Shown here: positions 2,710 through 13,706 of the stretch, piece after piece | Numbering within the stretch: the stretch's first letter is position 1 | Layout of the letters: each line of letters starts with the position of its first letter | From: Candidatus Abyssobacteria bacterium SURF_5 | GTDB lineage: Bacteria; Abyssobacteria; SURF-5 | Length of the DNA: 14,299 nucleotides | Assembly: GCA_003598085.1 (NCBI GenBank) | Contig: QZKU01000090.1 | Location: 1-14,299, forward strand | Reading direction: 5' to 3' | Program-made: the position numbers and the translations under genes | The notes under the pieces: generated by a model | What the model was told of the DNA's origin: nothing | Databases searched by the model: none | The model's input: only the letters and a program-made list of their open reading frames with translations

Positions 2710-2746
2710 TGGACTAATTTTAAAAAAATACTTGACAATTAGTCCA
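2710..2746. promoter_or_regulatory. 10-bp inverted repeat, candidate operator
   Basis: TGGACTAATT (2710-2719) and AATTAGTCCA (2737-2746) are perfect inverted copies separated by 17 bases. The right arm begins on the last base of the -35 box and runs into the promoter spacer. A bound dimer here would block RNA polymerase, so repression of the ATPase-protease operon is the likely role. The right arm plus its next base recurs as AATTAGTCCAC at 2822-2832 inside the first gene. Confidence 0.65.
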
Positions 2747-2760
2747 CAATGATGTTATAT
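2732..2760 (+). promoter_or_regulatory. Promoter of the ATPase-protease operon
   Basis: A perfect -35 TTGACA (2732-2737), a 17-bp spacer and TTATAT (2755-2760) form a strong sigma-70-like promoter; shifting by one base gives TATATT with an upstream TG. It lies 34 bp before the ATPase start codon in very AT-rich DNA. Because the core is near consensus, tight control by a repressor at the overlapping inverted repeat would make sense. Confidence 0.75.
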
Positions 2761-2793
2761 TATTTTCAAAAAATATAATAAAGGGAGCAAGTA

Positions 2794-3951
2794 ATGGAAT
2801 ATAGACCGACTATTTATGACGAATTAGTCCACCTTGCAGAAATGGCCTTGAAAGGGAATGACCGCGACCTAACCTTATTCTTGCGCCGTCTTATATCGAG
2901 AGTTCGCAAAGATAATCCCGCGATTGCTGAACGACTTCGCAAGGCGATGCAAGACAGAAAACCGCAGACAAATCTGGTAAGGGAAGCGCACTCATACGAA
3001 GCACATTCATACACAGAGGAGCCTCCTCGCGACCACGAGACACGGGCTCAACTCCTTCGCGTTGAAGATGACCCACAGCCAGACGTGGAGCCAGTTTTCA
3101 CCCGGGAGATAGCGCAGCAATTGAAACGTCTTTTGACTGAACGTCAAATGGAAAGGCGGTTGATCGAAGAGGGACTCTTGCCGACGCGAAGCATTCTTTT
3201 CACGGGACTTCCTGGTGTCGGTAAGACATTGACAGCAAGATGGCTGGCGCGGGAGCTTCAGAAACCACTTGTCTCACTTGACCTTGCAACGGTAATGAGC
3301 AGTTTTCTCGGGCGCACCGGGTGGAACATAAGGCAAGCGCTCGATTATGCAAAAAGCGTCCCCTGTGTTCTTCTTCTAGACGAGTTCGATGCTTTAGCGA
3401 AGATGCGGGATGATCCAACTGAAATTGGAGAGCTCAAACGTCTTGTCGCTGTTCTGCTTCAAGAAATTGACTTATGGCCCCCCACTGGCCTTCTAATAGC
3501 GGCCACAAATCACGAAAAACTTTTGGACCCGGCGGTATGGAGACGATTCGACCTCGTGATTCACTTTCCGCTTCCAGACCGCGAAGGCATTCGTAACCTA
3601 TTAGAAAAACAGATTGGGCTAGACAAAAAGGTTTCTAAACCACTCATTGTAGCGTGCGCCTTCGCAATGGCAGGAATGTCTTACAGTGACGTACAACGCA
3701 ACATTCGGTTGCTAAGAATGAACTCAGTGGTCAACCAAGAAACCATCGAGGATCAGATGACTCGTTTTATCGAAGGTGCGGTTGCGTCTTTACCATCCAA
3801 GGATGAGCAAATTAACTTCGCCGGTAGCCTCCGCGCGGTCGGATTCTCGGAGAGAAGAATAAACAAAATCACAGGTTTGAGTCGCGACACATTGCGGAAG
3901 TATCGCTTGGCGGAATTGCGAAAGCAAAAATTAGGGGCTGATAATGACTAA
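2794..3951 (+). CDS. AAA+ ATPase of an IetAS-type defence system
   Basis: A 385-residue single-domain AAA+ ATPase. Walker A is GLPGVGKT (138-145), Walker B VLLLDEFD (192-199), sensor 1 AATN (236-239), and the candidate arginine finger is in WRRFD (249-253). Residues 1-100 form a charged helical N-terminal region. Residues 341-372 (FAGSLRAVGFSERRINKITG and onward) read like a helix-turn-helix. Such ATPases next to a subtilase are the IetA component of the IetAS anti-phage system, where the ATPase presumably controls or feeds the protease. The start has AAGGGAG six bases upstream and is preceded by a strong promoter. The stop overlaps the protease start by 8 bp. Residues 64-73 contain a tandem EAHSY duplication. 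Subfamily assignment rests on architecture, not on a search. Confidence 0.85.
   Translation: MEYRPTIYDELVHLAEMALKGNDRDLTLFLRRLISRVRKDNPAIAERLRKAMQDRKPQTNLVREAHSYEAHSYTEEPPRDHETRAQLLRVEDDPQPDVEPVFTREIAQQLKRLLTERQMERRLIEEGLLPTRSILFTGLPGVGKTLTARWLARELQKPLVSLDLATVMSSFLGRTGWNIRQALDYAKSVPCVLLLDEFDALAKMRDDPTEIGELKRLVAVLLQEIDLWPPTGLLIAATNHEKLLDPAVWRRFDLVIHFPLPDREGIRNLLEKQIGLDKKVSKPLIVACAFAMAGMSYSDVQRNIRLLRMNSVVNQETIEDQMTRFIEGAVASLPSKDEQINFAGSLRAVGFSERRINKITGLSRDTLRKYRLAELRKQKLGADND
2822..2832 (+). promoter_or_regulatory. Intragenic third copy of the operator motif
   Basis: AATTAGTCCAC occurs here within codons 10-13 of the ATPase gene and is identical to 2737-2747 in the promoter. The copies are 85 bp apart, close to eight helical turns, so proteins on both could face the same side of DNA and form a repression loop. 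A coincidental match is possible but unlikely for an 11-mer this close. Confidence 0.45.
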
Positions 3952-6172
3952 AAATTATATTCTCGGCCGTGGGGAGAATCTGGTAAGACAAATTCAGGCT
4001 CCAAAAATAGAACATAAAAAAGCGCATCCTTACGAGGTAGGGGAAGCTCGCGACCGGTTGCTCCCAAAGTTTCAACAGACGGCGAGGAAGCTCGACCAAC
4101 TGCCGGAAAGAGCATGTCCACGGGGAGAAAGTGTCGCGTCGTTTATCATTCACCCGGCCTATCTCGCCAAATCATACTATCCTCGTGAGTTCTTATATGA
4201 GGCAAAACTTCGTGTTCTTGGTAGTCGCATCGCATACGTAAAACCAACGAAGGTTGCAACAAAGGAAAAACCGAAGACAAAAGTCACTGCTGAATTCCTT
4301 GTGGCCAGCACCCGAGAAAATTTCGATGATTTACCACGTTTTGTGAGAACGCTTGACCTGGACTCGGCGGCAGCTGAGAGGTTACGTCAATTCGAAGATG
4401 TTCGTGAACTCACGCCGGAGTCGAAATTGCGGAACATTCCGCAGACAACTGATTATCCCGTGCTTGAAATTATTCTTCATGCCGATGAAAAACCGTCCTC
4501 GGATTATATCATCGAAGGATTTCGCCGATTCCTCAGAGAAATGAGTATAAAGGTCAACATCGACAAGCGGCTATATGTAGGAGGGCTTTGCTTTCTGCCC
4601 CTGAAAGCACCAAGGAAACTCCTTAATGAAATTGCCGAATTCTCCTTTCTTCGTGTCGCGCGCGGAATGCCTAAACTGCGCCCACCCCAGATAGTTCGAG
4701 CCATTAAACCTAAACTAAGTTTGCACCCGAATGCCGTTCCAACAGATCCACCGGTTGACCCAGCTTTGCGAGTTGCCGTGTTCGACGGTGGGATGGGCAA
4801 AAACGAGATCATGAATCAATACGTCAGTGGCTGGAAGGGAAGAAACATGGGTAAACCCATAGCCGATTATGAGGAGCATGGACATATGGTCACTGGTGCG
4901 CTGCTTTTTGGTCCTATTGACAACCCAAAGTCTTTACCTCTTCCTTTTGCGAAGGTGGACCATTATCGGATACTTGATGAACACACGCATCCAAATGACG
5001 ACGAACTTTTTGACGTGATTCGTCGGATCGAGAGTACAGTATTGAATCGAAAACCCGAGTTTATGGTTCTCAGTGTTGGTCCGAATCTGGTGATAGACGA
5101 CGAGCCCCATGTTTGGACGTGCAAGCTTGACCAGCTTCTTTCCAATGGAGATCTATTGGCGGCTGTTGCTGTCGGCAATGACGGAGAAGCAGACCGTAAT
5201 CAAAACCTACATCGCGTCCAGGTTCCTTCTGACTGCGTGAACTCCTTATCCGTCGGCGCGTGCGATTCTCGTAACAACACATGGGAGCGAGCGTCTTACA
5301 GTTCAATGGGTCCCGGCCGAAGCCCAGGCCTTGTCAAACCGGACGTGCTGGCATTTGGCGGTTGCGCAGATGAACCCTTTCCTGTTTTATCTCAGCAAAA
5401 ATCAGGTGAGATTTCACTTCAGTATGGGACAAGTTTTGCGGCTCCTTTCGCTTTAAGGGCCGCTGTCGGTGTAAGGGCCTATCTTGGATCGATCATGAAG
5501 CCGCTCGTTCTGAAGGCTCTGCTCATCAATCGTAGCCAAGCCAACCATCAAAGCTTGGAGGAAATCGGTTGGGGGCGAATTAACGAGGATGTGGAGTCGC
5601 TAATTACATGCGCCGATAATGAGGCGGTCATCATCTATCAAGGCGCGCTGAGACCAGGAAATTACTGGGAAGCAGAAATTCCGTGGCCGGATGGCGCAGT
5701 CAGAGGCAATGTAGAAATCGTGGCGACATTTTGTTACGCGTGCCAAACAGACCCTGAGCATCCCATACATTACACGCGGACAGGGTTAGAAGTTGTTTTT
5801 CGACCGCATTCAGAGAAGCATAATATTGGTGCAAAGCTGCCGAAGTCGGAATCACTTTTTGGAATTGTAAAGCCTTACGCGACAGAGCAGGAACTACGTC
5901 ACGACGCACTTAAATGGGAAACGACGATCCATGGAGTTACGCGGAAAAGGGCAAGCAGCGTTCACCGGCCCCATTTGCAAATACACTACAATGCCCGGGA
6001 AGGCGGATCAGCCGCAAGCGCAGCAGGTCCTGTCCCTTATGCCCTCGTTTTGACTGTGCGTGCTAAGAACGTGCGTAATTTCTATGACCGCATAATGAGT
6101 AAGTACAGAAATCAACTGGAGGTGCTGCAACCGGTTGTCCGCGTTCCGGTGCGTGGTCTGGGGCTAAGGTAA
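3944..6172 (+). CDS. Subtilisin-like S8 protease of an IetAS-type system
   Basis: A 742-residue S8-family serine protease. The catalytic set is present: Asp281 in VAVFDGG, His312 in EEHGHMVTGALLFG, oxyanion Asn412 in VAVGNDGE, and nucleophile Ser497 in YGTSFAAPFA. The His motif deviates from the usual HGTHVAG, reading HGHMVTG. About 270 residues precede the catalytic domain and about 220 follow it, the latter rich in predicted beta strands. No signal peptide or membrane segment is seen, so it should act in the cytoplasm, unlike secreted subtilases. Its partner is the AAA+ ATPase just upstream, with an 8-bp overlap and its own AGGGG site at 3933-3937. In IetAS this protease is IetS; the phage trigger and protein target are not evident from sequence. 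The gene appears intact. Confidence 0.87.
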   Translation: MTKNYILGRGENLVRQIQAPKIEHKKAHPYEVGEARDRLLPKFQQTARKLDQLPERACPRGESVASFIIHPAYLAKSYYPREFLYEAKLRVLGSRIAYVKPTKVATKEKPKTKVTAEFLVASTRENFDDLPRFVRTLDLDSAAAERLRQFEDVRELTPESKLRNIPQTTDYPVLEIILHADEKPSSDYIIEGFRRFLREMSIKVNIDKRLYVGGLCFLPLKAPRKLLNEIAEFSFLRVARGMPKLRPPQIVRAIKPKLSLHPNAVPTDPPVDPALRVAVFDGGMGKNEIMNQYVSGWKGRNMGKPIADYEEHGHMVTGALLFGPIDNPKSLPLPFAKVDHYRILDEHTHPNDDELFDVIRRIESTVLNRKPEFMVLSVGPNLVIDDEPHVWTCKLDQLLSNGDLLAAVAVGNDGEADRNQNLHRVQVPSDCVNSLSVGACDSRNNTWERASYSSMGPGRSPGLVKPDVLAFGGCADEPFPVLSQQKSGEISLQYGTSFAAPFALRAAVGVRAYLGSIMKPLVLKALLINRSQANHQSLEEIGWGRINEDVESLITCADNEAVIIYQGALRPGNYWEAEIPWPDGAVRGNVEIVATFCYACQTDPEHPIHYTRTGLEVVFRPHSEKHNIGAKLPKSESLFGIVKPYATEQELRHDALKWETTIHGVTRKRASSVHRPHLQIHYNAREGGSAASAAGPVPYALVLTVRAKNVRNFYDRIMSKYRNQLEVLQPVVRVPVRGLGLR

Positions 6173-6247
6173 CTTTCCTTTTCAATTGCATGAACTGTGA
6201 ATCATAAGATAGATGGAATAAGGCAATTAACAATAGGAGGCAGAAGA

Positions 6248-6436
6248 ATGACAAGAAAACAGAATTTCACGCCTGGAACGAAAGCCCCGAAATCCGGACA
6301 ATATCAACAGATTGGCCCACGTGGGGGAAAAGGTAAAGAGGTGACGTCCGTAAAGGGAGCGCCACTTCCACCTACTTCAGTAAAGGGAACGACTTATAAG
6401 CTGGTCGATCCCACTAAGAATAAATCCGGGAAATAG
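6248..6436 (+). CDS. YjzC-like small protein
   Basis: A 62-residue basic protein starting MTRKQNFTPGTKAPKSGQY. The pattern F-x-PG-x-KAP-x-SG-x-Y-x-x-IGP resembles the YjzC family of very short proteins of unknown function (compare the Bacillus start HQFRPGQKAPNNG). The start is set by a perfect AGGAGG at 6235-6240, seven bases upstream; an ATG farther upstream at 6191-6193 has no such site. It lies 75 bp after the protease stop on the same strand with no obvious promoter of its own, so it is probably the third gene of the ATPase-protease operon. It could be an accessory factor, a substrate or a regulator of the protease; none of these can be shown here. Lys, Gly and Pro richness suggests an extended, possibly nucleic-acid-binding chain. 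Confidence 0.75.
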   Translation: MTRKQNFTPGTKAPKSGQYQQIGPRGGKGKEVTSVKGAPLPPTSVKGTTYKLVDPTKNKSGK

Positions 6437-6533: not shown

Positions 6534-8006
6534 CTACGATTCGGCAGCAAATCTAGAGATAGTATTTTGAATTTCCTCTGATTTCCCTTTGAAGCCGTAC
6601 TGTTGGCAAATCTTCTGAGCTTCCTTTAGTATGGTAAAGGCCTCTTCCTTTTCATTCTTTCGAAAGTAGATGACACCTATATTTAATAATGCATCTGCCT
6701 TTCCCTTAGGATCATCTATCTTCTCGGAGAGATGTCGTGCGTTTTCGAGATATTCAAGGGCCTCATCTAATCGACCTACGTTCATATATACATACCCAAT
6801 CGTGCAATGTATCTCCGATACAGTATCCAAATCATCTAAAGAATCGCAAATATGCAGTGCCTCTTGAAGAATGGGCACTCCCTCTTTTTCGTTTCCTCGA
6901 TAAGTGGTAATCAGTCCTATGCAAGCTAAAGCTTTTGCTTTCCCTGTAAGATTTCCAATTTTTTCATAAATTATTAGAGCTTCCTGATGAGCTTCCGCGG
7001 CTTGATCCAATAGATTCTTCTGTTGACCTGCTGGCAACGCAAGGGCCTTATACCAATATATGATCCCGGTACTATACAAAGCGTTTGCCAATCCAATGGG
7101 GTTGTCAATTTTCCTGTACAGGGAGATGGCCTGTCTATTGAATTTTAAGGATTCATCGAGATTGCCAAATCGTTCATGGACGCTACCGATATTTGATAAG
7201 GCAATAGCCTGTCCCTCCAAATTTTCAATGACTCTGAAAATCTGAAGAGCGGTTTGATGTGACTCCAGAGCCTTTTCCAGATTGCCGAGGAACTTATGTA
7301 CATTACCTATATTGCCGATTTGGTTGGCTTGACCAAGCGCATCCTTTAGGCGCTCATAAATTTCCAAAGCCAAACGGTGGTATTCGAGCGCCTTTTCTAA
7401 ATTTCCCAAGTGCATGTAGATAATTCCAAGGTTACTGAGAAAGGTTGCCTGATAAGCCTCATGCTTAGATTTCGCAATATCTAAACCTATTAAGAAGGAA
7501 TTCTTGGCGCTGGAGTAATCTGTAATGTACATCTGGGATAGTCCGAGGTTTAAGTACCCTGACATGGTGGGAAGCACTTGTATTGATCGCCGATAATTTT
7601 CCGCGGCGTCTCGGTATTCTTTTTCTTGAAACATACATTCCGCCGCGTCAAAATATTTAGCTGCCCTTGCCTTGGCATCTTCAGCGGCGGCGTCAACTTC
7701 CATTTGAAAAGTAGTTGAAGAAGCTTTCAGAATACGTGCGCCACTGGTATCCTGGCTCTCCTGAAGAGAGGGTTTCTTCTCCACTTCAAGATACTCCCGG
7801 GCAGTATTGGAAAGGTAGCCAAAGAAGATGATGACAATTAAGAAGAAAAGTAGATATCCTTCTTTCCCTTTTGCCTTTATTAGGAAAGGAAAAAATTTCA
7901 GAGCAAACTCTGGATAACCAGCCTTTCCAAGTGTCAAGTGTAGACCCAGTACGGCAGCTATAAATCCAAAAAGCCCCGTTAGAATGATCAAAAGTTTGGG
8001 TATCAA
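6534..8006 (-). CDS. Membrane-anchored TPR-repeat protein
   Basis: A 490-residue protein with two hydrophobic helices near the N-terminus (about residues 4-26 and 50-66), then a short linker and an array of tetratricopeptide repeats from about 115 to 470. The repeats recur with a 40-residue period, typified by ALEYHRLALEIYERL, and resemble the kinesin-light-chain/TPR_12 type; eight or nine units are visible. TPR arrays bind peptides or partner proteins. No enzyme domain is seen. The start is TTG 8006 with AAGAGG upstream on the minus strand; no ATG is available before residue 102. It lies 58 bp downstream of hsdS on the same strand, so it is probably the last gene of the hsd operon. It appears more AT-rich than hsdR and hsdM, suggesting separate origin. 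Its role in restriction or another defence step is unknown. Confidence 0.8.
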   Translation of the reverse strand: MIPKLLIILTGLFGFIAAVLGLHLTLGKAGYPEFALKFFPFLIKAKGKEGYLLFFLIVIIFFGYLSNTAREYLEVEKKPSLQESQDTSGARILKASSTTFQMEVDAAAEDAKARAAKYFDAAECMFQEKEYRDAAENYRRSIQVLPTMSGYLNLGLSQMYITDYSSAKNSFLIGLDIAKSKHEAYQATFLSNLGIIYMHLGNLEKALEYHRLALEIYERLKDALGQANQIGNIGNVHKFLGNLEKALESHQTALQIFRVIENLEGQAIALSNIGSVHERFGNLDESLKFNRQAISLYRKIDNPIGLANALYSTGIIYWYKALALPAGQQKNLLDQAAEAHQEALIIYEKIGNLTGKAKALACIGLITTYRGNEKEGVPILQEALHICDSLDDLDTVSEIHCTIGYVYMNVGRLDEALEYLENARHLSEKIDDPKGKADALLNIGVIYFRKNEKEEAFTILKEAQKICQQYGFKGKSEEIQNTISRFAAES

Positions 8007-8064
8007 GCAGTGCCTCTTTCTCAGTCAATAGTGAAGGCTCACCAGACTTGTTGCAGGATTTCAA

Positions 8065-9798
8065 TTACTGTTGTGGTCCTGTATTCAGCATGTGATGCAC
8101 GACAGCTTCTATAAGTTTTTCGCTCTCGCAGAGGGATTTCCTGAGTTTTGTTTCGAGTTCGTCGCAGAGAGCCATGAGTTGGTCAACCTTAGTGACTATG
8201 CGTTCAAGTTCTGATAGTGGCGGGAGTGGAATAAGAAAATCTTTTAACCTTTTCATGCTTAGACCTTCTCGAGAAATTCCTACTTGTGCTGCCATAATGA
8301 TACTTTGTAGATAAGGAGATATCAGGCAAAGGTGGATATAATGGCGTATCTTATTATCGACCAAACGAACAATAGCCACATGTTGGCTCACGTTCCCGGT
8401 CAAGAAATTATCCGGGACAATGCAACTGCGCCCGATTGAAGCGCCGGTTATGTTTAACAAAATATCACAAGGTTCGACAGTTGTTTCTCGCATTCTTTCA
8501 TGGATATGTTCAGGTATAAGAGCGACATTATCGAGTTTCAAGCCATCATTCCAAACATTTTGGGAACGAATAAAAGGTATTCCTTTCTTTTCATATACGG
8601 CTTTACCTCCCCGTGGCGTACTGCCAGAACCAAGTTTAATGCTTATTTGTTCTAACCTAACCCATTCCCATTGGTTAGATAGCTTATAAGGCTGTTCCTG
8701 TAATTTGTTCGAAGACGAAGGCTTGAAATTCCTAATTCTTCCTTCTTTAATCAGCCGTTGTTTTTCGGCTTGGATTTTCTTGAGGAGGATGGATGCGGGT
8801 TCGTCGTTGGGGTTCTGGGGGACGAGCTTGCCCTGGACAGCGAGTTGGAGGATTGCCTGGCGGAGTTTCTGAACCGTTTCCGGCCGGTCGTACAACAGAT
8901 CGAAGTTGTCGCAGATACGCTGCCAGTGCTGAGCGAATTCTTTCGGATCCCGGGCAGACAGCATCTTATCCAGCAACGCGCCATTCAGCTTTAGCTGGCT
9001 TTCGCTTCTCTTTTTCTTTCGCTCCTCCAGTTCATCGCACAGCCCCATGAGGTGGTCGACTTTGGCGACAATACGTTTTTGTTCTGCAAACGGAGGAAGA
9101 GGAAATGGATTGAGTGAGAAATAATCCTTGGGAACCCTCTTTTGCCCGGCAGATCCAGTCATTTTTGCTTCTCCACAAATGAGGAAATCAGGGGACTTCA
9201 CATACAAGAGGACATACTCGGGCAAGAGAAGACTTTTATCCGCCGGACGAAAGACGTGCAATTCAGTTGTCCCAACTCCGACCCCATTAATTAGTCCCCG
9301 CATTACAACGGATTTGCCGTTTTGAAAACAAGGAGTGATCTTTGCGACGGCAACATCACCTTCCGCGAAATGAGTAAAGCCGCCTTTTATTTCTTTCCAA
9401 AAACGTGTTTCGGATTGTACCCACTTCCCGAACTCCGCAGGTATGAACGCCATAGGGATAAAGGAAACCTTTTTCCCGTCGTTCACCTCGTTTCTGGGAT
9501 TAATTAGACCTATATCCGTCAGTCGTGTCCATTCCCATCCATTAGGAAGTTGCCAGAGATTTTCTTTATCCATGCCCGTCGGTAATGACTTAGTATATTT
9601 CTTAAATCCTTCTTTTGTGAGTCGTCCTCTTTCCGATTTTAGCCTTTGCAGGAGGATGGAAGCGGGCTCATCATCAGGGTCCTGCGGAACAAGCTTCCCT
9701 TGGACCGCTAGTTGGAGGATCGTTTTACGGAGCTTTTCGACTCCATTTGGCGCGTCGGCGAGTATTTCAAAGTTTTCGATGAAGGGCTTTATGTTCAC
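8065..9798 (-). CDS. hsdS: Type I restriction specificity subunit
   Basis: A 577-residue HsdS subunit, which recognises the bipartite DNA target of the type I complex. Two target-recognition domains are evident, about residues 85-245 and 374-540. Each is preceded by a conserved helix block (ILQLAVQGKLVPQ at 28-40 and 316-328) and followed by a coiled-coil spacer (RIVAKVDHLMGLCDELEE and RIVTKVDQLMALCDELET). The two halves repeat with a 289-residue offset, the classic internal symmetry of HsdS; the variable domains between them set the sequence read. The start is GTG 9798, overlapping the hsdM stop by 4 bp (GTGA), so translation is coupled. Length is somewhat above the usual 400-470 because each half carries an extra N-terminal conserved segment. 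Both halves look intact. The recognition sequence cannot be predicted. Confidence 0.95.
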   Translation of the reverse strand: MNIKPFIENFEILADAPNGVEKLRKTILQLAVQGKLVPQDPDDEPASILLQRLKSERGRLTKEGFKKYTKSLPTGMDKENLWQLPNGWEWTRLTDIGLINPRNEVNDGKKVSFIPMAFIPAEFGKWVQSETRFWKEIKGGFTHFAEGDVAVAKITPCFQNGKSVVMRGLINGVGVGTTELHVFRPADKSLLLPEYVLLYVKSPDFLICGEAKMTGSAGQKRVPKDYFSLNPFPLPPFAEQKRIVAKVDHLMGLCDELEERKKKRSESQLKLNGALLDKMLSARDPKEFAQHWQRICDNFDLLYDRPETVQKLRQAILQLAVQGKLVPQNPNDEPASILLKKIQAEKQRLIKEGRIRNFKPSSSNKLQEQPYKLSNQWEWVRLEQISIKLGSGSTPRGGKAVYEKKGIPFIRSQNVWNDGLKLDNVALIPEHIHERMRETTVEPCDILLNITGASIGRSCIVPDNFLTGNVSQHVAIVRLVDNKIRHYIHLCLISPYLQSIIMAAQVGISREGLSMKRLKDFLIPLPPLSELERIVTKVDQLMALCDELETKLRKSLCESEKLIEAVVHHMLNTGPQQ

Positions 9799-11249
9799 TT
9801 CTTTTTTCCACCAAGGGAATCCAAGAGTTCCGCCTTCAGCGCGTTGCGGGTATGCGCCAGTTCAGCAAGAAGCTTCCTGTATTTGGCAAGCAATTCTTCA
9901 GGATCGCCGTGACTGGAATTCGAGGAGTTTGGATTCTTGATGTCGAGATTATACCCTCTGGCTACGATATCCTTTGCCGGTACTCTCCATGCGAACTCGT
10001 TTTCAACCCGATTATCCCACCACGCCTTCTCAGGCTCGAATTCCTCGATAAGAATCGGTTTTGTCTTCGAATAGGACTTATAGCCGTCCGGGTAAGGATG
10101 TTCGTAGTACCAGATCTCTTTGGTGGGTTCACCTTTGGTGAAGAACAGGAGATTGGTCTTGATGCCGGTGTAGGGACTGAATACTCCATTGGGGAGGCGT
10201 ACTATCGTATGGAGGTTGCATTCTTCGAGCAGCTTTTCTTTGATACGCGTCTTTACGCCCTCGCCGAAGAGAGTTCCATCTGGCAGGACCATTCCAGCGC
10301 GACCGCCCGGCCTCAGGAGATGCATGATCAAGACAAGGAAAAGGTCGGCTGTTTCCTTTGTCCGGAACGGGGCCGGAAAGTTGTTCTCGATGCCATCTTC
10401 TTCGATTCCTCCGAATGGAGGATTGGTTACAATTACATCGACCCTGTCTTTCGCGGTGTAATCACGCAAAGGCCGGGCAAGCGTATTGTCGTGCCGGATT
10501 TGTGAAGGAACCTCAATGCCGTGGAGAATCATATTGGTGATGCACAGGAGGTGAGGAAGCGGCTTCTTATCGGCTCCAAAAATTGACTGTTGAAGGATTC
10601 TTTCATCTTCAACGCTCTTTACCTGCTGCTTGCGAACATTTTCAATTGCGCACGTGAGGAAGCCTCCGGTGCCGCATGCGGGATCAAGCACCTTGTCACC
10701 GAGTTGGGGGGCTACCATATCGACAATGAATTGGGTGACGGCTCTTGGGGTGTAGTATTCGCCTGCGTTTCCGGCGCTCTGGAGGTCCTTGAGTATCTTT
10801 TCGTAGATATCTCCGAAGAGGTGGCGGTCCTTCGCCTTATTGAAATCGATGCTTTCATTCATCTTGTTTATGACCTGTCGCATCAGATGCCCGGACTTCA
10901 TATAGTTGTAGGCGTCCTCGAAGACCTCGCGTACGATGAAGCCGCGGGGATCGGCGCCGCGACCGAACGACAGATTCTTGAGGGTTTTGAACAGCTTGTT
11001 GTTCACGAAGTCGAGCAGTTCATCCCCGGTAATGCCTTCCGAATCCGCGGCCCAATTACTCCACCTGAGCTGGTCGGGGATGGGGGAACGGTACTTTTCT
11101 TCGAGAAGCTCATATTCCTTCTCGCGGTCATCGAATATTTTCAGGAAAATCATCCATCCAAGCTGGCTGATTCGCTGCGCGTCGCCGTCCACCCCGGCAT
11201 CTTTGCGCATGATATCCTGAATGCCTTTAATTGCGGCGGTGACTGACAT
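9795..11249 (-). CDS. hsdM: Type I DNA adenine methyltransferase subunit
   Basis: A 484-residue HsdM that transfers methyl groups from S-adenosylmethionine to adenine N6 in the target read by HsdS, protecting host DNA. It has the N-terminal helical HsdM domain (about 5-130), the AGNAGEYYTPRAV segment leading into the catalytic fold, the AdoMet motif DPACGTG (189-195) and the catalytic NPPF (276-279). The C-terminal tail is charged and helical, as expected for contact with HsdS. I chose ATG 11249, which has GAGAGGAAG a few bases upstream and begins MSVTAAIKGIQDIM, the normal start of the family. An upstream in-frame start at 11291 would add 14 residues encoded by a palindromic repeat and is rejected. 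It lies 105 bp after hsdR and overlaps hsdS by 4 bp. Confidence 0.95.
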   Translation of the reverse strand: MSVTAAIKGIQDIMRKDAGVDGDAQRISQLGWMIFLKIFDDREKEYELLEEKYRSPIPDQLRWSNWAADSEGITGDELLDFVNNKLFKTLKNLSFGRGADPRGFIVREVFEDAYNYMKSGHLMRQVINKMNESIDFNKAKDRHLFGDIYEKILKDLQSAGNAGEYYTPRAVTQFIVDMVAPQLGDKVLDPACGTGGFLTCAIENVRKQQVKSVEDERILQQSIFGADKKPLPHLLCITNMILHGIEVPSQIRHDNTLARPLRDYTAKDRVDVIVTNPPFGGIEEDGIENNFPAPFRTKETADLFLVLIMHLLRPGGRAGMVLPDGTLFGEGVKTRIKEKLLEECNLHTIVRLPNGVFSPYTGIKTNLLFFTKGEPTKEIWYYEHPYPDGYKSYSKTKPILIEEFEPEKAWWDNRVENEFAWRVPAKDIVARGYNLDIKNPNSSNSSHGDPEELLAKYRKLLAELAHTRNALKAELLDSLGGKKK

Positions 11250-11276
11250 TGATGCTTCCTCTCTGCATGAGGCTCT

Positions 11277-11338
11277 GGGGACAGACACCATTCTACGAAT
11301 TCAAAAAGACGTAAATTCCGTAAATGGTGTCAGTCCCC
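11277..11338. repeat. Palindromic REP-like element between hsdR and hsdM
   Basis: GGGGACAGACACCATT (11277-11292) and AATGGTGTCAGTCCCC (11323-11338) are inverted copies with one mismatch; inner bases TACGAATT and AATTCCGTA extend the pairing with a bulge. The whole 62-bp element can form a long hairpin. Its outer sequence matches a form I associate with dispersed palindromes linked to RAYT-type (Y1) transposases, though no transposase is present here. There is no T-run after the stem on the minus strand, so it is not a typical terminator, but it could affect mRNA processing or the hsdR:hsdM expression ratio. Confidence 0.8.
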
Positions 11339-11354
11339 GTCGCTCCGCCTTTGC

Positions 11355-13706
11355 TTATGCGGCGGTATATAGATATTCTTCGAGTTCCTGAACCGCCTGG
11401 AGGTATTCGTCTCTGCCTCCAAACGTATCTATGATTTCCAGTGGGGTACCGAACCGATTAATCGGCTGAACCTTGAGCACATTCATGCTTTCGATATTCT
11501 CGATGCCTTCGTCGGCGTACTTATTGAGTAAGGCATCGAGGATGGCGCGGGCTTTTTCTCCATACTTCGCGAAGTAATTCCGCTTGCGCACGTTTTCGGC
11601 GCGCTCGCGCCGCGTGAGGGGCGGCTGACCAAAGGCCACATGACAAACGAGGTCAAAGGGATCAAATTCCTTGCCGACTTCCTCGGCAAGGGGTTCAAGC
11701 AGAATACCTTGCTCCTCCATCTCTTCAATGATAGCCTGTTTTTTCTCCGCCTCCGTCCAGTGCTTCAGGAACTCGTCCAGAGAAGCGAATTCCTTTAGGA
11801 TGGTGTTTCTCGTGTAATCTTTGAGCGATTCGGTAATCAGCTTTCCATCTTTCGAATAATACTGGACGCGCTCCGCGACTACCCAGACGGGCACATCTGC
11901 AACGTAATACTTCTTCGCTCCCGCTCCCGGCGGCGGGTCTATAAGAATTCCGCTGTCATCCTCTCCATCTCCTTCTTCGTCTCCGTCTGTTTCGTCATCC
12001 GGCGGCAGGGTCGGTTCATCAGGTTCCGGCTCATAAATCTGTTCCGGCTTTCCATCGAAACCAGGATCGGCGAACAGTTCAGTTGCTTTCTTGAAATCCA
12101 TAATGGTGAAGAAGAGCTTGCCGTAATCCTCATTTATGCGGGTGCCGCGCCCGATGATCTGCTTGAATTGCGAGAGGGATTGGATGATTTGATCGAGAAC
12201 GATGAGTTTGCAGGTTTGGGCGTCCACTCCGGTGCTCATGAGTTTTGATGTTGTTGTAATGACAGGATATCGGCTTTCGGGGCTGATGAAATTGTCGAGT
12301 TCCGCCTTGCCTTCGTCATTATCGCCGGTAATCCGCATGATGTATCTGCGGTTTTCAGATGCAAGGTCGCCGTTCCGGTTTACGAGCGCCTTGCGCATTC
12401 GCTCGGCATGGTCGATATCCTCACAGAAGATAATTGTTTTGTCGTAGCGATCGGTGGCTTTGAGGAATTCGGTGACTTTCCTGGCGACCAGGTCTGTGCG
12501 CTGGTCCAGCACAAGGTCCCTGTCATAGTCTTTTTGATTATATATTCGGTCCTCGATGAGCTTGCCGTATTTATCGCGTTTTCCCTCTTCCGGCCGCCAT
12601 CCGGTGAGGTCTTTGTCGATGTCGATGCGAATGACCTTGTACGGGGCGAGGAATCCATCTTCGATGCCCTGCCTCAGAGAATAGAAGAAGACAGGAGGAC
12701 CGAAATAGTCGATGTTGGAAACGTATTTGGTTTCCTTTGGAGTGGCGGTCATGCCGATTTGGGTCGCCGAAGAATAGTATTCCAGGATCTCGCGCCAGGC
12801 CGAGTCTTCGGCTGCGCTGCCCCGATGACATTCATCCACGACGATAAGGTCGAAGAAATCCGGAGAGAACTGCTTATATATATTCTTTTCCTCTTCCAAG
12901 CCCGAGACTGCCTGATATAGCGCAAGATATACTTCATAGGATTTATCTACCTGCCGGTTTTTGATTTTCGTCATGGCCTGACCAAACGCCTTGAAATCGT
13001 TGGTTATGGTTTGGTCCACCAGGATGTTGCGGTCGGCCAAAAAAAGGATTCGCTTTTTCATCCGCGACTTCCACAGACGCCAGATGATTTGGAAAGCGGT
13101 GTAGGTCTTTCCGGTGCCTGTGGCCATAACCAGGAGAATGCGGTTCTGACCTTTGGCGATGGCTTCTATAGTTCGATTGATGGCGACCTGCTGATAATAA
13201 CGTGGGACCTTGCCGGTGATATCTGTGTAATTGTCCTGGGTGAGGAACTGCAGGATGGTGTCATCGTCATTTTTCCAGGCGCAGTAGCGCCGCCAAAGCT
13301 CGGTGTGTGAGGGAAAAGAATCGAGAGGGATTTCACGTTCCGGCTGTTCGCATGCGCCGGTGCAATCATGTTCCAGGAACGCATCGCCATTGGAGCTATA
13401 GGCGAATGGCACATCCAGCATTTCCGCGTAGGCGAGCGCCTGCTGCATGCCGTCGCCGATGCAGTAGTTGTTGGATTTTGCCTCGATAATGGCGACCGGG
13501 ACGTTCTCGTGGAAGAGAATGTAATCGGCGCGGCGGCCCTTTTTGCGAGAAGCCAGCCGGCCTTTGACCATGACTCGCCCTGGCGTAAGTGTGACTTCTT
13601 CGCGTACTTGCGTGAGGAGGTCCCATTCGGCGCGCTGGATGGCAGGCGTGATGAATTTGCTGCAGATGTCCCGCTCGCTGAGGCTTTTTTTGTTGAACGT
13701 TTCCAA
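11355..13706 (-). CDS. hsdR: Type I restriction endonuclease/translocase subunit
   Basis: A 783-residue HsdR, which translocates and cuts unmethylated DNA as part of the HsdRMS complex. The PD-(D/E)xK nuclease lies near the N-terminus, with Asp61 in RRADYILF and Glu75/Lys77 in VAIIEAK. The SF2 motor follows: Walker A ATGTGKT (195-201), DECH (291-294), MTATP (319-323) and motif [10 protein letters not shown] (516-523). Residues 558-584 form a strongly acidic, low-complexity linker before the C-terminal domain that docks on HsdM. The length fits compact EcoEI-like (type IB) subunits better than EcoKI. The start is TTG 13706, chosen because the frame closes at an upstream TGA and no ATG is available; GGAAAG lies about ten bases upstream. 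It is the first gene of the hsd operon. Confidence 0.94.

Follow-up and report, generated by a model that had tools for sequence, protein, structure and literature searches.

The promoter and the start codon of ietA, the first gene of the ietAS operon of Candidatus Abyssobacteria bacterium SURF_5, carry two wide inverted repeats (O1 and O2) whose sequence, span and helical spacing recur in homologous operons of several phyla. The explanation in which we place fairly high confidence is a helically phased cooperative autorepression, in which IetA would occupy O1 and O2 of its own operon. The DNA analysed (hereafter, the window) comprises 14,299 nucleotides of contig QZKU01000090.1, and loci from other replicons were used for comparison.

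The ietAS operon and its neighbourhood

The first gene of the operon, ietA (2794-3951, + strand), encodes an AAA+ ATPase that matches the PADLOC IetA profile over residues 8-370 (E 9.3e-83), as well as Pfam AAA, and that ends in a predicted helix-turn-helix. The second, ietS (3944-6172, + strand), whose start overlaps the end of ietA, encodes a subtilase (S8 peptidase) matching the PADLOC IetS profile over residues 32-723 (E 2.2e-44) and Pfam Peptidase_S8. With an IetA-profile ATPase adjoined by an IetS-profile subtilase, the pair is, judging from these matches, IetA and IetS of a known defence/toxin-antitoxin system, sharing both genes, their order, their overlap and their profile matches with IetAS of pTiC58, SgiAT of SGI1 and TA132/3 of Mycoplasma mycoides. 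PADLOC classes IetAS as a defence system, and the ATPase/protease pairs of SGI1 (PMC5006074) and Mycoplasma (PMC8562856) have been reported as toxin-antitoxin systems in which the protease is the toxin and the ATPase the antitoxin.

Regarding the surroundings, a 79-aa ORF with a YjzC-like domain (6197-6436; Pfam E 1.1e-6) directly follows ietS and is possibly a third gene of the operon. Adjoining IetAS on the - strand (6534-13706), genes for a TPR protein and for all three components of a type I restriction-modification system (HsdS, HsdM and HsdR) make up, together with IetAS, a small defence island. Further upstream (595-1262), two overlapping small genes resemble a MazE-like antitoxin (a weak likeness) and a PIN-domain toxin. 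The same genome also harbours a second IetA-like ATPase gene (L045, G000:C45:23321-24268), with approximately 36% identity over the AAA domain.

Proposed operators in the window and in homologous promoters

The promoter of ietA is a good sigma-70-type promoter, with a -35 box TTGACA at 2732-2737 and a -10 box TATATT at 2756-2761 (+ strand, as are all the elements described here). Around its -35 box, TGGACTAATT at 2710-2719 and AATTAGTCCA at 2737-2746 form a perfect inverted repeat, that is, a single 37-bp dyad (O1, 2710-2746) with one arm on either side of the box, the right arm taking the last base of the -35 (2737) and extending into the -35/-10 spacer. AATTAGTCCAC is found again at 2822-2832, 85 bp downstream and within the ietA coding sequence. 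This agrees with the original prediction, which had described three copies of a 10-bp motif, two of them straddling the -35 and an identical one about eight helical turns downstream. The third copy had been taken as a single site, and in this point the prediction needs correction: this copy (AATTAGTCCA at 2822-2831, on the codons for E-L-V-H) belongs, as the right arm, to a further dyad of 37 bp (O2, 2795-2831) lying over the start codon, whose left arm, TGGAATA at 2795-2801, overlaps that codon and had been missed as degenerate. The left and the right arms of O1 and O2 are offset by the same 85 bp, so that the two dyads are in register.

The 5.1-Mb genome has only four copies of the 10-mer, of which ietA accounts for three, and the dyad TGGACKA-N20..24-TMGTCCA occurs in it a single time, as O1; no other was found, for example, near the second IetA-like gene. 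In local dinucleotide shuffles, the 10-bp inverted repeat has a P of 0.022 and the three copies a P of 0.005, while three copies anywhere in the window have a shuffle P of 0.04. The statistics of the window by itself are thus modest, and it is the comparison with homologous promoters that secures the repeat. The fourth copy of the 10-mer, which has no partner arm, lies on contig C114 near a regular, CRISPR-like array of short repeats (L040 1700-3002, G000 contig C114). Upstream of the ietA promoter, T-rich repeats (CTTGTTTTT) and, after them, an A-run occupy 2585-2640.

For the comparison, IetA loci were collected from plasmids, phages, genomes and viral contigs and reduced to 72 clusters, and 59 representatives from several phyla had usable homologous promoter regions. 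The closest relatives of the window IetA reach about 42-51% identity at best, and the searches found few close relatives in other phyla. That the motif and its spacing should be conserved in the promoters of homologous operons had been proposed as a check of the original prediction, and they are. TGGAC[TG]A is paired with T[AC]GTCCA in several phyla, mostly spanning 37 or 38 bp, and 17 such pairs occur in the 59 regions, compared to the 0.003 expected when bases are shuffled within 20-bp blocks. Eight of these 17 pairs, together with 10 of the same-strand distances given below, come from the 36 representatives (from viral contigs and later searches) that had no part in defining the motif. With a near-exact cut-off, the 17 kb surrounding IetA starts contain 21 dyads, and the 330 kb of flanking DNA none. 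As expected for autorepression, these inverted repeats overlap the operon's own promoter and are kept in homologs: in five loci (L002, L148, L151, L160 and L186), TTGACA or a similar box lies between the arms of the dyad, just before the right one. A dyad at the start codon whose right arm falls on the L-V-H/Q-L-A codons is present in L002, L165, L166, L167, L170, L174, L186, L206, L259 and others, and the place of the degenerate left arm of O2 is taken by an intact TGGAC[TG]A in L002, L166, L170, L174, L186 and L259. The sites accompany IetA across phyla and in plasmids, prophages and chromosomes, beside varied neighbours.

The distances between half-sites on the same strand are also constrained. 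Among 31 of them in the 59 regions, 22 fall at 74-76 bp (n=16) or at 85-87 bp (n=6), compared to 0.04 in shuffles, and none of the 31 falls at 77-84 bp. Both classes are one helical turn apart and correspond to approximately 7 or 8 turns. L148, L151 and L160, which have their second site upstream of the promoter, keep the phasing as well, and L186 has three dyads in steps of 76 bp. Two operators on the same face of the DNA, whole helical turns apart and conserved, are what looping calls for, and this phasing fits what would be predicted for cooperative binding on one DNA face, either by looping or by wrapping. Concerning the repression with DNA looping read into the layout by the original prediction, the spacing of 7 or 8 turns thus supports one-face binding, while the loop itself is something that we infer, looping, wrapping and simple cooperative binding being indistinguishable by sequence.

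The coding copy bears the mark of selection at the level of the DNA, taking the codon usage of each gene as the expectation. In genes with V-H/Q, the valine is encoded by GTC in 15 of 16 (5.2 expected, P 3e-7; P 1e-6 without the window), and the leucine that precedes it by TTA or CTA in 8 of 10 (1.0 expected, P 6e-8), including two Streptomyces genes in which TTA makes up 1-2% of the leucine codons. In the L-A-Q subclade, TTA/CTA is combined with GCC in 7 of 7 genes (0.3 expected), which matches the TGGGC variant of the site. Codon choice therefore indicates selection on the DNA of the coding copy, beyond the need for its amino acids. The conservation of this copy for its amino acids alone had been named as a refutation of the original prediction, which on this point too is supported.

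In other clades of IetA, the enrichment of inverted repeats by span, disregarding sequence, is weak, and for this reason the 37-bp rule is claimed for the TGGAC, TGGAA and TGGGC clades only. Five loci with other recognition helices (L153, L052, L215, L220 and L234) show iteron-like direct repeats upstream of ietA at 21-bp steps, as well as 42-43 and 63-64 bp apart, which are whole helical turns. Judging from these sequences, clades with other recognition helices may have a different operator layout. The related IetA genes of a Pf filamentous phage (L158) and a Xanthomonas plasmid (L163), which likewise have another recognition helix, have common inverted repeats of the GTTGCA type upstream. 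Five loci (L165, L167, L177, L178 and L184) carry an extra ACGTCCA at +76 from the aligned start, 42 bp (4 turns) past the coding arm, which covers the codons of a conserved DVQ-like stretch and could serve either as operator or for its amino acids. The search for further members of the regulon gave no second dyad in the genome and only partial TTGACAATTAGTCCA matches in the phylum, and a scan of viral contigs for TTGACAATTAGTCCA returned 81 stretches, mostly of unrelated coding DNA and none with the upstream arm.

The predicted helix-turn-helix of IetA and its proposed operators

Does IetA have the means to read these sites? In the AlphaFold2 model of the window protein, residues 336-384 (3799-3945, + strand) form helices 336-348, 353-360 and 364-384, the last being the putative recognition helix (RDTLRKY...), with a pLDDT of about 90 up to residue 380. 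Pfam models of helix-turn-helix domains match the C-terminus below cut-off only. IetA proteins end in a helix-turn-helix, predicted with high confidence for that of the window, which would provide the antitoxin with a DNA-binding domain.

The operators covary with this helix. Of the 31 loci whose recognition helix is of the [SA]RD[TA] type, 20 have TGGAC dyads, compared to 0 of the 28 others (Fisher P 3e-8, uncorrected for kinship). The loci being related, the P values given here should be read as the upper end of their significance. The three loci with ARET, a helix that takes a minimum of three changes on the tree, all have TGGAA dyads at the same places, and proteins with SRPT and SHPT have, as a tendency, TGGTAA words upstream. 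This specificity rule is not a clean one: with the cut-off applied, no TGGAC dyad is present in 11 of the 31 [SA]RD[TA] loci (several have TGGGC variants), L184 (ARDT) is an exception with a TGGAA dyad, and a loose TGGAA test is passed by six loci besides those with ARET. Since the type of dyad goes with the recognition helix of IetA, the reader of the operators is probably IetA itself.

Possible mechanisms and their implications

In the autorepression that we favour, IetA, probably oligomeric as an AAA+ ATPase, would grip the half-sites of O1 and O2 through its C-terminal helix-turn-helix, contacting the two operators from the same side of the double helix. Their joint occupancy would bend or loop the promoter region and keep the RNA polymerase off the -35 covered by O1, with the outcome that the ATPase/antitoxin and the protease would be made at a low, self-limited level. 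Antitoxin autorepression is usual in toxin-antitoxin operons, and a repressed expression at low level, common in them, seems likelier than the silence of the operon that the original prediction had suggested. The authors of the SgiAT study inferred a need for positive activation from the weakness of its native promoter (PMC5006074), a weakness that would fit autorepression too. A more elaborate version, which we hold as tentative and rather doubtful, is that IetA is an ATP-gated AAA+ autorepressor whose oligomer wraps or loops the promoter by means of helix-turn-helix tails placed on four phased half-sites, the same assembly restraining IetS. If this were true, a phage signal or a change of nucleotide state would free DNA and protease together, and sensing, transcription and toxin activation would be coupled in one machine.

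Could the operators be real and yet be read by another regulator, encoded by the host or by the element, with the helix-turn-helix of IetA otherwise used, for instance for sensing phage DNA? The binding of IetA is putative, and the SgiAT promoter seemingly needs positive activation, which would imply other regulators on some relatives (PMC5006074); nevertheless, this is unlikely, given that the sites track IetA among so many replicons with different neighbours, that the genome of the window contains no further dyad and that the operator sequence varies with the IetA recognition helix. It is quite unlikely, in turn, that IetA on its two operators activates transcription or marks the DNA for plasmid stability or incompatibility instead of repressing. 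A relative on pTiC58 has been reported to determine stability and incompatibility (according to a title among the references of PMC4231840), and phased arrays of sites occur at partition sites too; however, repressors typically sit where O1 does, over the -35 and the spacer, a minimal layout of two dyads on the promoter of the gene itself is what autoregulated genes usually show, and chromosomal and prophage copies have the sites as well.

Two further readings deny that a pair of operators exists at all. According to one, the coding copy would serve the amino acids L-V-H alone and O1 would be the sole operator, leaving no second site and no loop, in agreement with the conservation of L-V-H/Q-L-A in many IetA proteins and with the degenerate left arm of O2 in the window. 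Codon choice, far from each gene's own usage at the coding arm, rejects that the copy is kept for its amino acids alone, and the homologs with intact left arms at the start codon and the fixed register of 74-76 or 85-87 bp to O1 add to making this reading very improbable. According to the other, the repeats would be due to chance and have no function. The modest statistics of the window (three copies anywhere, P = 0.04) could have accommodated it, but independent loci, in which the sequence is conserved along with its span, its place and its phasing, refute such an origin, whose probability we consider practically negligible.

With respect to known systems, autorepression by the antitoxins of type II/IV operons, such as AbiEi (cited in PMC8562856), shares with the autorepression proposed here an antitoxin with a DNA-binding domain, inverted repeats on its own promoter and a likely cooperative binding. 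Unlike them, the antitoxin is here an AAA+ ATPase, and the dyads are wide (37-38 bp) and form helically phased pairs, one of them across the start codon. In the gal, lac and ara systems, repression by DNA looping involves an operator within the transcribed region. They resemble ietAS in that whole helical turns separate this operator from its partner at the promoter, whereas the putative regulator of ietAS is an ATPase and the product of the very gene it would control, acting through a putative loop. Antitoxin autorepression and looping are already known, and what would be new is an AAA+ ATPase reading wide phased dyads, one over its own start codon. In the open literature searched, the founding paper (Yamamoto 2009) aside, neither operators nor autoregulation of IetA, nor a DNA-binding domain or role, were found described.

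IetAS is a widespread and poorly understood defence/toxin-antitoxin pair, for which a concrete and testable control circuit is now proposed. It comes with a prediction at the level of residues (GGAC would be read by R364-D365, with which the recognition helix begins), with a rule for the spacing (7 or 8 helical turns) and with natural specificity variants (TGGAC, TGGAA, TGGGC and TGGTAA), and it suggests a second role, as DNA-binding repressor, for an AAA+ ATPase antitoxin.
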